A stretch of 43,062 bases of DNA from a virus. A program made the position numbers and the translations under genes. This document shows, piece by piece, positions 4,226 through 40,489 of the stretch. How positions within the stretch are numbered: position 1 is the stretch's first letter; every line of letters starts with the position of its first letter. The notes under the pieces were generated by a model. The model did no database searches. It was not told the origin of the DNA and was given only the letters and a program-made list of their open reading frames with translations. The stretch is from IMG/VR virus record IMGVR_UViG_3300033747_000028, positions 1-43,062 of that record. The stretch is one strand, 5' to 3'.

Positions 4226-4661
4226 TGAAGTTTTCCCTAACTGGAAAAATGCTAATCAAGAATTAGAAAAATTAACAGAAGCAACATTTATTTATCCGGC
4301 CTTTTCCAAACCGTCTGGCCAGATAGCAATTAACTTATTTTTTGTAGATGAAAAAGCTCTTGATGTAAAGATACCTCAGGGGCATAAGAGAAAATTCGAG
4401 AACATACTTGTGGCATTGACTCAGGAAGTGATTCAAAAAGTCGGACTTAATATAATTGGAATGGCCTATAGAAATCAGGAGTTAACAGGTGATGTCAGAG
4501 AAATGATGGCCCGGGATGCAATTAGTAGATTCAAAAAATATTCTGAAGATCATGATCTAAAAGATTTTCTTGCCAGGAGACTTAGAGAAAGATTAGGTTT
4601 ACCGGTTGAAGATGATGCAGAATATACTATTAGATTAGCCTGGGAGGGTGAAGAAGAATGA
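4218..4661 (+). CDS. Hypothetical early protein
   Basis: A 147-residue protein that I do not recognise. It starts at ATG 4218 inside the end of the previous gene (8-bp overlap). It has a central conserved-looking helix (ENILVALTQEVIQKVG) and a C-terminal Arg-rich segment (FLARRLRERLGL). Its place directly after the helicase-loader-like gene suggests a DNA metabolism role, but no catalytic motif can be seen. Confidence 0.55.
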   Translation: MNNEVFPNWKNANQELEKLTEATFIYPAFSKPSGQIAINLFFVDEKALDVKIPQGHKRKFENILVALTQEVIQKVGLNIIGMAYRNQELTGDVREMMARDAISRFKKYSEDHDLKDFLARRLRERLGLPVEDDAEYTIRLAWEGEEE

Positions 4662-4891
4662 AACCAATTATAGTAAATGGAAATGTTGATGCAGACACTA
4701 AAAACGATATGGCCGGACTGCTCAGAGACTTTAAGAATGACAACAAAGGGAAAAGAATTAAAATTGCCGGACCATTTATCGAAACTGCATTAAGTACTGC
4801 AAATTATGAAAATGTTGAAATTGAATTAAGTGAAAATTATAAAGAAATCAGACTGAATATTACTGATAAAGACGCTGAGGTCTCAGCTTAA
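4658..4891 (+). CDS. Hypothetical small protein
   Basis: A 77-residue acidic protein with a mixed alpha/beta pattern. The start overlaps the previous stop by 4 bp (ATGA), a typical coupled junction. No family recognised. Confidence 0.55.
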   Translation: MKPIIVNGNVDADTKNDMAGLLRDFKNDNKGKRIKIAGPFIETALSTANYENVEIELSENYKEIRLNITDKDAEVSA

Positions 4892-4904
4892 GGAGTTGGT
4901 TAAA

Positions 4905-5303
4905 GTGCCAGTTGTTAATACAAACGTAAAAGAAATAGGTTATGCTGCGTTAGCTCTGGCCATAATCGAAGGATATACACCGGAAGGAGCTTTGCAGGTA
5001 GTAGAAACAGGAGAAGAGCCAGTGACTAAGTTCAATGGAGATAATGATATTTTAGACATGATCATTTTAAAGTTTACTGAAGATATGACCTATAAAGAAA
5101 TTGGTGAAGTTTATAATATTAGTGCAGATAATGCTTATAACAAGTTCAGAAGACTGGCTGCTAAAAGAAAAACCGAAGACATGGTAAAACTTTATGATGC
5201 CGGACTTAATTTTAATCAGATAGCAAAAGTTTTTAGGATGTCCCGGCAGGGAATCTGCTACAGATATAACAAAGCCAGGGGTGGAGATAATGAAAAGTCA
5301 TGA
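4905..5303 (+). CDS. Two-HTH DNA-binding protein
   Basis: A 132-residue protein. I start it at GTG 4905, nine bases after AAGGAG; the in-frame TTG at 4896 is too close to it. Two helix-turn-helix units are visible: MTYKEIGEVYNISADNAYNK (about residues 61-80) and LNFNQIAKVFRMSRQGICYR (about 102-121). The 'xxIaxxxxxsxxxvxxR' spacing is like sigma region 4 or transposase-type HTH proteins. It probably regulates phage transcription. Its target is not known. Confidence 0.65.
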   Translation: MPVVNTNVKEIGYAALALAIIEGYTPEGALQVVETGEEPVTKFNGDNDILDMIILKFTEDMTYKEIGEVYNISADNAYNKFRRLAAKRKTEDMVKLYDAGLNFNQIAKVFRMSRQGICYRYNKARGGDNEKS

Positions 5304-37271: not shown

Positions 37272-37589
37272 ATGAAAGGATTTCCTAAAAAATTAAAGAC
37301 AAAAAAAGATTATGAAAATATCGTCGATGATTTCGGCTACACTCAAAAAGTAAAAGAAGCTTATCAGGCATTGTTAGAAACTGATCAGCATTATGTATTT
37401 GATAAAGAACTGGCAACTGAGGATGAAAGGACTGGCCCGCTCCCTGATTATAAAATAATGAAAGAAGATGATCAGGAAACCGAGACGGTTAAAATTGTTC
37501 AGTATAAATTAGTAGATAACCCTGACTCAAAGCTCAAAGAGTTAGGATTTACAGAATCTGAAGTTCAAGAGGTGATTGACTTATGCTAA
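37272..37589 (+). CDS. Hypothetical linker or fibre-assembly protein
   Basis: A 105-residue charged protein, ATG 37272 after GAGGAGGTATTATAA. The N-terminal half is a small helical domain (KTKKDYENIVDDFGYTQKVKEAYQALLE). The middle is acidic and the C-terminus has SKLKELGFTESEVQEVIDLC. It lies exactly between the fibre gene and the DGR target gene and overlaps the latter by 7 bp, so it may chaperone or bridge the adhesin. Function not recognised. Confidence 0.5.
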   Translation: MKGFPKKLKTKKDYENIVDDFGYTQKVKEAYQALLETDQHYVFDKELATEDERTGPLPDYKIMKEDDQETETVKIVQYKLVDNPDSKLKELGFTESEVQEVIDLC

Positions 37590-38629
37590 GTGTAGTAGGA
37601 GTAGATAGTCCTGCTTTTTACAACGCTGAAGGAAACATAGAAAAGACAACCGGAGTCCAGGGAGTAGATATTCCGGCCCTGGCATTAAGAATTAATAGGC
37701 AGAACTTAAAAATTGAATCAGCATCAGCACTAACTGCCTCAGACAATGATGGCAGTTTTTCTAGTTTTGCGATGGGTACAGATTATTATATCTATGCCTG
37801 TCAACCAGCTGATGGTATTGAGCCAGACTTTGTGCTTTCGGCTAACTCTACTTATCCAGATACAATTCCTTCTGGAGTTACGCCCAGTGCTGATAACACT
37901 CGGAAGATTGGTGGCTTTCATTATGGCCGGGTAAGGAACAGTTCTACAGCTTCTGATGTATCAGAAAGCATTGTACCTAACTCAGTTTGGGACCTTGTTA
38001 ATCGTCCTAAATGTTCCCCTGAGGGGATGGCTAAGGTAGGAAACCTTTGGGTAGATATTTATCTGGCATCTGATGATGGTAACGGTGGTGTTGAATCAAA
38101 ATATAATGCGACACCTATAACCGGAACTGAAGGCTTAAGCTGGTACAGTTTCGCTGAAAGGTTTGCCAAAGTTGATAAGAGGATGGCATCAATGTCAGAG
38201 TGGACAGCATTAGCTCAGGGCAGTCCTCAGGGTAACGATGGTGACAATGTCAATGCCTGGTCTGCTACCAGCAACAGCAGTAGAACTGCAACTGGTACTG
38301 TAACCAATGCTATCAGTAATTATAATATTGTCGATTGTGCTGGTAATGTGTATGAGTGGTTGGATGAACTTTCTATTAGACAGGATAGTTCAGTGACTAC
38401 CGACTGGCGCTGGTATGATCCCGATACTGACTTTGATGAAAGCATCGAAAGCAATTGGAATGAGTTAGGAGATTTATATCTACCTAATGATAATGGTCTT
38501 ACTGCTTTCAGAGCAGGTGGCGGCTGGGACTATGGTGTCCGCTGCGGTGCTCGTTCGGTCGACGTGGGCTACCGACCGTGGGGCGTGTTCTCGCTCCGCG
38601 GGTCTCGTGGTGTCTGTGATCCTCTGTAA
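37583..38629 (+). CDS. DGR variable protein: C-type-lectin/FGE-sulfatase-like phage adhesin
   Basis: A 348-residue protein, ATG 37583 overlapping the previous gene. About residues 1-150 are a beta-rich N-terminal region that should attach to the tail. About 155-348 form a formylglycine-generating-enzyme-type C-type lectin fold (VGNLWVDIYLAS, MASMSEWTALAQGSP, CAGNVYEWLDE, then GLTAFRAGGGWDYGVRCGARS). The last 39 codons hold the variable repeat. Variable residues are 314, 316, 317, 320, 327, 329, 330, 331, 334, 336, 338 and 339, embedded in an invariant frame of GW, CGARSV, PW and GSRGVC. In other DGR phages this protein binds the host receptor; here that is inferred from position after the tail fibre. 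Confidence 0.93.
   Translation: MLSVVGVDSPAFYNAEGNIEKTTGVQGVDIPALALRINRQNLKIESASALTASDNDGSFSSFAMGTDYYIYACQPADGIEPDFVLSANSTYPDTIPSGVTPSADNTRKIGGFHYGRVRNSSTASDVSESIVPNSVWDLVNRPKCSPEGMAKVGNLWVDIYLASDDGNGGVESKYNATPITGTEGLSWYSFAERFAKVDKRMASMSEWTALAQGSPQGNDGDNVNAWSATSNSSRTATGTVTNAISNYNIVDCAGNVYEWLDELSIRQDSSVTTDWRWYDPDTDFDESIESNWNELGDLYLPNDNGLTAFRAGGGWDYGVRCGARSVDVGYRPWGVFSLRGSRGVCDPL
38514..38618 (+). repeat. DGR variable repeat (VR)
   Basis: A 105-bp copy of the template repeat at 39031-39135 (constant offset of 517 bp, no gaps). It differs at 18 positions, and at all of them the template has A. Changes are to G (11), T (5) or C (2). The last 19 bp (38600-38618, a GT-rich run without A in either copy) are identical and are the likely initiation-of-mutagenic-homing (IMH) region. 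Beyond 38618 the two copies diverge. It ends 11 bp before the stop of the adhesin gene. Confidence 0.97.
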
Positions 38630-38672
38630 TTCGTGATTTGATAATCTGTCTTTTTATAAGGTGTGAATACTT

Positions 38673-39008
38673 ATCAAAAATTTTACAATACATCAAAAAG
38701 TATATGATTTTATGGTTTGGTTTTTCCCGATTGTAGATAACTTTCCGAAGTACGAAAAATTTGTACTTTGTACTCAAATTAAGAATTCAATACTTGATAT
38801 CTCAAAAATTATTATTGAAGCAAATAAATCTAGAGGTAGCAAAGTTAGATTTCTGCACCGGGTAGATGTCAGACTTGAACAATTAAGAATGCTGATCAGA
38901 TTTTCTCACAAAAGAAGATATTTAAATGATTCTAAATATGAAAATGCATCTAAAAAAGTCAATGAAATAGGCCGCATGCTTGGAGGTTGGATCAAGTCGT
39001 GCGATTAA
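38673..39008 (+). CDS. avd: DGR accessory variability determinant (Avd)
   Basis: A 111-residue four-helix-bundle protein: KNFTIHQKVYDFMVWFFPIVDNFPKYEKFVLCTQIKN, then GSKVRFLHRVDVRLEQLRMLIRFSHKRRYL and ASKKVNEIGRMLGGWIKS. The last segment is diagnostic for DGR Avd proteins, pentameric basic partners of the reverse transcriptase. The conserved N-terminus lies upstream of the first ATG (38712), which has no ribosome binding site. In frame, only non-standard starts exist after the stop at 38664: ATA 38667 or ATC 38673, behind AAGGTG (38658-38663). I favour ATC 38673. It ends 22 bp before TR. Confidence 0.85.
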   Translation: MKNFTIHQKVYDFMVWFFPIVDNFPKYEKFVLCTQIKNSILDISKIIIEANKSRGSKVRFLHRVDVRLEQLRMLIRFSHKRRYLNDSKYENASKKVNEIGRMLGGWIKSCD

Positions 39009-39030: not shown

Positions 39031-39135
39031 CAGGTGGCAACTGGAACAATGGTGTCCACTGCGGTGCTCGTTCGGTCAACGTGAACAACCAACCGTGGAA
39101 CGTGAACTCGAACAACGGGTCTCGTGGTGTCTGTG
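39031..39135 (+). repeat. DGR template repeat (TR)
   Basis: A 105-bp non-coding template. It holds 24 adenines, 18 of which are replaced in VR. Read in the target frame, it has nine AAC, one AAT, one CAC and one CAA codon at exactly the 12 variable positions; the fixed frame between them is free of A. AAC and AAT can only mutate to NNC or NNT codons, so no stop codon can arise. Located between avd and the reverse transcriptase gene, as in the Bordetella phage BPP-1 DGR. Confidence 0.97.
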
Positions 39136-39376
39136 CTCTTCATGCAAAAATCTTTCAGACAGTAGTGGTTACGGCCACTGCTGCAGTGTTTCTAGAAATG
39201 AGGAACAGGCTTTTAATCCCTGCTGAGATACTTTTTAAGTCAATCCAGCAAAAAATTTAGATTGCTGGCCAGGCAGCAAGTATTGAAAAATAGAAAGTTG
39301 TCACAGTCAGCGACTGCCCGTTCTCATTTGAGCGGGCTTTTAATTTTCACCCACAAATAAAGAAAGTGGTGATAAT
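39136..39376 (+). ncRNA. Structured spacer of the TR RNA
   Basis: No gene occupies this 241-bp spacer between TR and the reverse transcriptase. It holds hairpins that fit a structured template RNA. One is 39160-39183 (9 bp with one G-U, loop TTACGG). Two mutually exclusive hairpins share one arm: 39245-39250 with 39263-39268, or 39262-39267 with 39274-39279. In BPP-1, the RNA downstream of TR is known to prime and bind the RT-Avd complex, so a similar role is likely. A terminator-like stem (39316-39347) closes the region. Confidence 0.6.
39316..39347 (+). terminator. Intrinsic terminator or stem between TR and RT
   Basis: GCCCGTTC (39316-39323) pairs with GAGCGGGC (39330-39337) over 8 bp with one G-U, loop of 6 nt, followed by TTTTAATTTT. 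It may terminate part of the TR transcript and so give a TR RNA in excess over the reverse transcriptase mRNA. Confidence 0.65.
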
Positions 39377-40489
39377 ATTCCAAAAAAATTTAAAAATTTA
39401 TATCCTAAAATATATAACTTTTCAAACTTATTAGTTTCTTATGAAAATGCTAGAAAATCTAAACGATATACTAATCAAGTTCTTGAATTTACTAATCAGT
39501 TAGAAAGTAATTTAATCAACCTTCAAAACCAGCTTATCTGGAAAGAATATTTACCTGGTGAATATCATCAATTCTATGTTTATGAACCTAAGCAGAGGTT
39601 AGTTATGGCACTTCCTTTTGAAGATAGAGTGGTCCAGTGGGCTGTATATAGAAACCTAAACCCTATATTTGATAAAACTTTTTATGAACATAGTTGTGCC
39701 TGCCGGATTGGCAAAGGTACTCATTATGCAGCAGACCAGCTGCAGCACTGGATGAGAAAACTCGACAGGAGCCCAGGGAAAACTTATTATCTCAAAGCTG
39801 ATGTTGCAAAATATTTCTACAGGATAGATCACAGAACTCTTTTCGAAATAATCAAAAGAAAGATTGGCTGCAGAGATACTTTAGAGCTGATCTGGAAAAT
39901 TATCAAAAAAGATGATGGTGAATTTGGGATACATCTCGGTGATCATTACTTTGAAAGGGATAAAATTAAAGGAATTGGAATCCCAATTGGTAACTTAACC
40001 AGTCAATTATTTGCTAATGTTTATCTAGATTTTATGGATAAATTCATTAAACATAATTTGAGAGTGAAGCACTATGTAAGATATATGGATGATTTCGTTA
40101 TCCTGGGAAAATCAAAGAAAGAACTACATACAATTAGACAGGAGATAGAAATATTTCTTGCTGATTATCTAAAATTAGAACTTAACAATAAAACTACCGT
40201 GGACAATATCTGGAATGGTATAGATTTCTGCGGATATGTTACTTATCCACCATATAGAAAATTGAGAAAAAGTACAAAGAGAAAACTGAAAAGGCGGCTT
40301 AAATATCTTCAGAAAAAGTATTATAAAGAGGAGGTGGAGATCGATGAAATAAATGCCAGTGTTCAAAGCTATTTAGGAATATTAAAACATTGTAATAGCC
40401 ATAATCTGACAATGTCAGTTATTGGCCAGTTAGAAGATGAAATACTTAATCAACTAGATTTAGATGACGTACGAGAACAAAGAAGTTGA
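39377..40489 (+). CDS. DGR reverse transcriptase
   Basis: A ~370-residue group-II-intron-like DGR reverse transcriptase. Catalytic Asp142 in KADVAKYF, the DGR-specific IGNLTSQ (204-210; DGR enzymes carry this in place of other RT motifs), and YMDD (236-239) are all present. It copies TR RNA into A-mutagenised cDNA for VR. Homology runs well upstream of the first ATG (39605): YNFSNLLVSYENARKSKR and LIWKEYLPGEYHQF are the conserved N-terminus. The only start consistent with it is ATT 39377, five bases after GTGGTG. The first part of the gene would be lost in standard gene calls. Confidence 0.93.
   Translation: MPKKFKNLYPKIYNFSNLLVSYENARKSKRYTNQVLEFTNQLESNLINLQNQLIWKEYLPGEYHQFYVYEPKQRLVMALPFEDRVVQWAVYRNLNPIFDKTFYEHSCACRIGKGTHYAADQLQHWMRKLDRSPGKTYYLKADVAKYFYRIDHRTLFEIIKRKIGCRDTLELIWKIIKKDDGEFGIHLGDHYFERDKIKGIGIPIGNLTSQLFANVYLDFMDKFIKHNLRVKHYVRYMDDFVILGKSKKELHTIRQEIEIFLADYLKLELNNKTTVDNIWNGIDFCGYVTYPPYRKLRKSTKRKLKRRLKYLQKKYYKEEVEIDEINASVQSYLGILKHCNSHNLTMSVIGQLEDEILNQLDLDDVREQRS

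Follow-up and report, generated by a model that had tools for sequence, protein, structure and literature searches.

A diversity-generating retroelement of BPP-1 layout with adenine-specific variation, apparent near-cognate start codons and a terminator-like hairpin in a phage probably related to Halanaerobium prophages

The diversity-generating retroelement (DGR) of phage BPP-1 (NC_005357) is composed of mtd, avd, a template repeat (TR) and the reverse transcriptase gene brt, in that order, and both brt and avd begin with ATG. A second described DGR, from the Bacillus phage BalMu-1 (NC_030945), has the order target, avd and reverse transcriptase (RT), again with ATG starts for RT and avd, and its target is annotated SUMF1/EgtB/PvdO. 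The locus discussed here lies in the IMG/VR record IMGVR_UViG_3300033747_000028, and the window is the whole 43,062 nucleotides of that record. Judged by its sequence, the cassette is a DGR of the BPP-1 layout. It has the same gene order as BPP-1 and shares with it an Mtd-like target with a C-terminal variable repeat (VR) as well as Avd, and its RT aligns to bRT from residue 3 to 315. BalMu-1 gives the top RT match among named phages (50.6% identity) and has its genes in the same order as the window, but its annotated target is unlike the Mtd-like target found here. Unlike in both described systems, neither the RT gene nor avd of the window appears to begin with ATG. The features are as follows.

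37583 to 38629, plus strand: Mtd-like target gene, 348 aa, with the VR at its 3' end (Pfam mtd_2nd, 5.1e-19; profile comparison with BPP-1 Mtd)
38514 to 38618, plus strand: VR, from 38513 if an extra A>G is counted (base-by-base comparison)
38619 to 38624, plus strand: 3' edge of the VR, IMH-like, with two non-adenine differences from the TR (comparison with the TR and with relatives)
38658 to 38663, plus strand: Shine-Dalgarno-like AAGGTG of avd (duplex energy -7.7 kcal/mol for the start at 38673)
38673 to 39008, plus strand: avd, with a proposed ATC start at 38673 (bAvd profile, NCBIfam Avd equivalog, clade alignment)
39031 to 39135, plus strand: TR, from 39030 if extended (base-by-base comparison)
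39163 to 39311, plus strand: conserved structured RNA 3' of the TR (31 pairs by RNAalifold, covariation)
39316 to 39347, plus strand: intrinsic-terminator-like hairpin (39316-39337) and T tract (terminator scan)
39366 to 39373, plus strand: Shine-Dalgarno-like GTGGTGAT of the RT (duplex energy)
39377 to 40489, plus strand: reverse transcriptase, with a proposed ATT start at 39377 (RVT_1, 1.2e-20; bRT 8ub7, 1.3e-53)

The target gene closes the block of tail genes in a record that has contractile-tail genes for sheath, tape measure and baseplate. It matches the second Mtd domain in Pfam, and a profile of the target and eight relatives compared with BPP-1 Mtd gives 99.4% over 258 columns, reaching the C-terminus. 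A PDB sequence search with the target gave no match, and the AlphaFold prediction has a mean pLDDT of 29, so the fold, which in a BPP-1-like target would be that of a C-type lectin, is proposed through homology to Mtd alone. The target is probably the protein by which the virus grips its host or binds a receptor. The closest RTs come from IMG/VR contigs and Halanaerobium genomes, which suggests that the window comes from a phage with a contractile tail that is a relative of Halanaerobium prophages and has a host among salt-loving bacteria. The only DNA relative among named phages is BalMu-1, at 8% of the query, and a search of Rfam gave no match.

The VR and TR of the window differ in the manner claimed in a previous sequence-only reading. 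A base-by-base recount of 38514-38618 against 39031-39135 gave 18 mismatches in 105 bp, all of them on TR adenines, with 18 of the 24 adenines changed (A>G 11, A>T 5, A>C 2) and all 81 other positions identical, and thus reproduced the counts of that reading, which had no non-adenine mismatch within the block. The 12 variable TR codons (nine AAC, one AAT, one CAC and one CAA) are each altered in the VR, also as had been stated. Six adenines are kept: one lies in a GCA at the 5' boundary, four are the middle base of AAY codons, and the last ends the CAA codon. A 5' extension of the block by one base (A at TR 39030, G at VR 38513) is possible; it brings the changed adenines to 19 of 25 and would add a thirteenth altered codon. 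By the hypergeometric distribution, the probability of finding all 18 mismatches among the 24 adenines of 105 positions is 1.7e-15, which bears out the earlier argument that drift would not give such a pattern. A DNA search of the record with the TR matched just the TR itself and the single VR, with no further VRs.

Similarity continues past the 3' edge of the block, where the VR has ATCCTC (38619-38624) and the TR has CTCTTC (39136-39141). These differ at two non-adenine positions, so the identity at non-adenine bases holds only through 38618. The same two differences are found in the window, L003, L004, L006 and L011, and we take this edge to be the place of the IMH/IMH* difference in BPP-1 DGRs. 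The IMH is also mentioned in one paper (PMC3240598). The region just 3' of the VR is a point of difference from BPP-1, which has an 8-bp GC hairpin there that the window and seven other Mtd-type relatives lack. A 75-nt perfect-stem scan, which recovered the BPP-1 hairpin, found no GC hairpin or cruciform beyond chance 3' of the VR in 8 of 8 Mtd-type loci. For BPP-1 this hairpin is required for efficient homing. An AT-rich hairpin at 38651-38680 was considered and rejected, as it has no counterpart in the other seven Mtd-type loci in the same scan.

The adenine specificity extends to the relatives, as the sequence-only reading would lead one to expect. Seventeen DGRs of the clade were counted (the window, L003, L004, L006-L011, L014-L016, L029-L031, L033 and L056); L005 and L012 yielded no VR/TR pair and stand outside the 17, and the relic L013/L017 is uncounted. 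Among these, 222 of 420 TR adenines differ in the VR vs 6 of 1495 other bases, and the pairs have zero non-adenine differences in 12 of the 17 DGRs. The six exceptions are distributed over L008 (2), L009, L029, L030 and L056. The bases that replace adenine are G (126), T (55) and C (41). Four groups of loci have identical TRs (L003/L004; L007/L029/L030/L031; L008/L056; L010/L016), and their VRs are always different, at 12 to 18 positions, so that the comparison of relatives suggested earlier found no two loci with the same VR. The TRs of the window and L003 differ at 15 of 103 positions, and 11 of the 15 differences do not involve any adenine. All 11 of these non-adenine markers are mirrored in each element's own VR, in a setting where the upstream target gene is identical at 785 of 794 positions and the 3' flank at 64 of 65. 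Template changes therefore reach the target, and the comparison argues, indirectly, for transfer of information from TR to VR with the TR unchanged. An origin of the VR/TR differences by drift or by an adenine-specific DNA base editor is refuted to our satisfaction. An editor does not account for all three replacement bases and drift does not account for the improbability given above, and the mirrored markers require copying. Twelve further loci from the wider RT group were scanned without gaps, and 11 of them contain A-biased pairs. The remaining locus, L034, has a 96-bp direct repeat with zero differences (4395-4490 and 4851-4946) on the downstream side of the RT match; it may be a VR/TR pair that has not diversified or a repeat of another sort.

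The sequence-only reading had also held that homing was recent. The absence of background differences is consistent with recent homing, but every homing event resets the entire block and the date therefore cannot be set. The cassette, known from a metagenomic record, is probably active at present. An alternative is that the RT and avd of the window are decaying and that the VR pattern is left over from past activity. Decay has a precedent in a relic DGR of Halanaerobium salsuginis (L013/L017, 3902-5402), but the frames are open and under purifying selection in the compared loci, the window VR/TR pair has no background differences, and VRs are diverse in loci with the same start codons, and we consider decay improbable. 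The relic itself consists of an Mtd-like gene followed by only a C-terminal RT piece. The end of the gene resembles the TR side (CTGTGCTCATC), and avd, the TR and most of the RT are absent; it might be the kind of remnant left by recombination between VR and TR.

By kind, then, the adenine-specific finding is that of an ordinary DGR, and it is the expression anatomy, the starts and the terminator, that is unusual. Among solved structures bRT is the best match of the RT (1.3e-53), followed by a group II type RT (1.3e-21), which places it with the DGR-type RTs. The sequence carries the motif IGNLTSQ, which we also count toward a DGR-type RT. The NCBIfam search of the RT gave no DGR RT match, and its top model was a group II model at 132.5 vs a cutoff of 300. 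The first in-frame ATG is at 39605, 76 codons downstream of ATT 39377 and inside the conserved protein, and in the alignment with bRT (8ub7) it is the isoleucine codon ATT 39377 that sits opposite Met1. The codon at this place is ATT in 15 of the 19 clade loci and ATC in four (L010, L012, L015, L016), and none has a usual start there. All 19 lack a usual N-terminal start and have an AUH codon behind a Shine-Dalgarno site, though the loci are related and the number is therefore far below 19 independent events. Six loci (L006, L010, L012, L015, L016 and L033) have an in-frame stop 3 to 5 codons upstream of the ATT or ATC, which leaves little space for an upstream start. Usual codons are found upstream in L010 and L016 (TTG two codons before the ATC), in L011 (TTG 13 codons before) and in L033 (GTG three codons before the ATT, within the Shine-Dalgarno-like stretch), and these four of the 19 could therefore start the RT upstream. 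Readings with an upstream start or a frameshift were rejected on the sequences of L006, L010, L012 and L015.

A frameshift from the GTG within GTGGTGAT would be another way to produce the RT in place of initiation at ATT. Just upstream of the ATT the window does have a GTG in another frame with an A-rich run behind it, but this GTG falls within the Shine-Dalgarno-like stretch, its frame runs into TAA after two codons in L006 and stops after few codons in L010 and L011, and the GTG of L033 needs no shift to be in the RT frame. We consider a frameshift very improbable. Initiation at the isoleucine codon fits the Shine-Dalgarno energies, which are -8.3 at the proposed RT start and -7.7 at that of avd. 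Both fall within the span seen for genes of the window, whose median is -10.2 with quartiles of -11.6 and -6.3, as compared with -2.7 for random positions. Purifying selection acts on RT codons 2-76, all of which precede the first ATG: six of 11 comparisons allowed an estimate of dS and gave dN/dS of 0.05 to 0.12, and dS was saturated in the remaining five.

The avd gene has a similar arrangement. Its open frame begins at 38667, directly past a TGA, and the first ATG, at 38712, has no Shine-Dalgarno site. Read from the ATC the protein scores 113.3 bits against bAvd and covers profile positions 3-107, and read from the ATG it scores 102.5 bits and covers 13-107. The NCBIfam Avd equivalog (NF033474) matches at 122.1 bits with a cutoff of 80, which identifies the accessory protein. 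The aligned start is ATC in the window, L003, L004 and L006, ATT right after a TGA in L010, L015 and L016, and ATA in L011. Thus 8 of 17 loci have ATC, ATT or ATA, without a usual N-terminal start and behind a Shine-Dalgarno site, and 9 have TTG at the same place. In L015 the earliest usual start of avd is at codon 20 or later.

Other genes start in the usual way. For ten other genes of the clade loci, 65 of 68 aligned starts are ATG, GTG or TTG. Of the three exceptions, two have an ATG one codon later and one, a CAG in L010, is ambiguous. Among 104 other distinct RT loci (sequences identical over the first 300 bases were omitted), a usual start falls within codons 1-5 in 95 (ATG 59, TTG 31, GTG 5), and the number of TTG starts among them seems high. 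The remaining nine include L048 and L159 with ATA (L159 at the same place as L075) and L096 with ATT/ATC; the rest are ambiguous or distant. The RT of L047 (2960-3010) has GTT, behind AAGGAGG, at the position of its relatives' ATG. Genome G398, of the same phylum, has four RT copies with equal scores (L170, L174, L176, L177).

Between the TR and the RT there are two further elements. Twelve of the 19 clade loci were aligned over this interval. In the conserved RNA 3' of the TR, 98.4% of alignment cells are paired vs 52% or less in slid controls, and changes on both sides of a pair are seen in 14 pairs and 35 cells vs 7.1 and 11.8 in shuffles. The terminator-like hairpin of the window ends in the tail TTTTAATTTT, 39 nt upstream of the RT start. 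In the clade, 16 of 19 loci have a hairpin with a stem of 8 to 12 pairs and a T tract, placed 35 to 41 nt ahead of where the RT starts; L011, L012 and L033 lack it. The same scan finds such a hairpin in 1 of 25 other loci, in 0 of 950 mononucleotide shuffles and neither upstream of brt in BPP-1 nor in BalMu-1. The hairpin is retained although the stem sequences differ among loci. The Halanaerobium saccharolyticum MA284 elements (L014, L016) and one from a Halanaerobiales MAG (L015) have RTs 78 to 85% identical to that of the window and, like it, an ATT or ATC start and the terminator; the conserved RNA is found in L014 and L015. Unlike the window, L014 has a target that is not Mtd-like, of which the sibling type in L008 matches FGE-sulfatase weakly. 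The MA284 genome thus holds two clade DGRs that differ in the kind of target and have related machinery.

This could be an ordinary DGR in which RT and avd came by rare starts through drift, without regulation, while the terminator closes a late phage transcript and the RT has a promoter of its own. Weak starts are frequent in the wider RT group, where TTG accounts for 31 of 95 usual starts, and a promoter scan of the region gave 14 sigma-70-like matches vs 13.1 in shuffles, no excess, and so gives no guidance on promoters. However, RTs that are 67 to 97% identical all keep the AUH codon whereas the genes beside them have usual starts, and the hairpin is conserved despite its differing stem sequences. 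We regard drift as unlikely, though by no means negligible. We consider it highly probable that a single explanation covers the locus, namely that the DGR rewrites its Mtd-like target and that its machinery appears to be kept scarce through near-cognate starts and a terminator.

Of the steps in this explanation, comparison shows the adenine-specific copying from TR to VR, the conserved RNA and the consistent lack of usual codons at the RT N-terminus. The TR and the structured RNA on its 3' side would be transcribed together, and RT and Avd would copy the TR RNA with errors at adenines. The cDNA would substitute the VR, at the 3' end of the Mtd-like gene, and alter the variable face of the protein. 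At the terminator between TR RNA and RT most transcripts would stop past the template RNA, which would therefore be in excess over the enzyme, and some would leak into the RT. Translation of the RT from AUU or AUC, and of avd from AUC, AUU or AUA (or UUG), would occur behind ordinary Shine-Dalgarno sites with a low yield, and the low initiation would give a low dose of RT and Avd. Among host genes, infC, pcnB and, in S. aureus, cvfC1 and ccpN begin at AUU or AUA downstream of a Shine-Dalgarno site and have a lowered yield for that reason, according to PMC13009471 and, for pcnB, its reference list; unlike these, the genes here belong to a phage DGR. The same paper gives about 10% of the AUG yield for AUU and AUA starts with an extended Shine-Dalgarno in Staphylococcus aureus. 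It appears that the machinery is limited in both transcription and translation in the Halanaerobium-phage clade, and the weak RT and avd starts may keep the mutation cassette turned down. A search of the open-access literature turned up no account of a DGR with near-cognate starts, a scope that makes this weak evidence of novelty.

Gene callers that are restricted to ATG, GTG and TTG shorten such proteins, and the RT of the window was listed 76 codons short. One survey of DGRs took ATG as the sole start codon (PMC6642488). A speculative extension, which we think rather doubtful as it stands, is that Halanaerobium-phage DGRs are throttled twice, by a terminator that makes template RNA abundant and RT message rare and by near-cognate or UUG starts, so that mutagenesis would track the fidelity of IF3 and the physiology of the host. 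To our knowledge, the way in which DGRs are restrained against over-mutation is poorly understood. A clade without a usual start codon at the RT N-terminus and with a terminator between the template RNA and the enzyme offers a direct test of this restraint.
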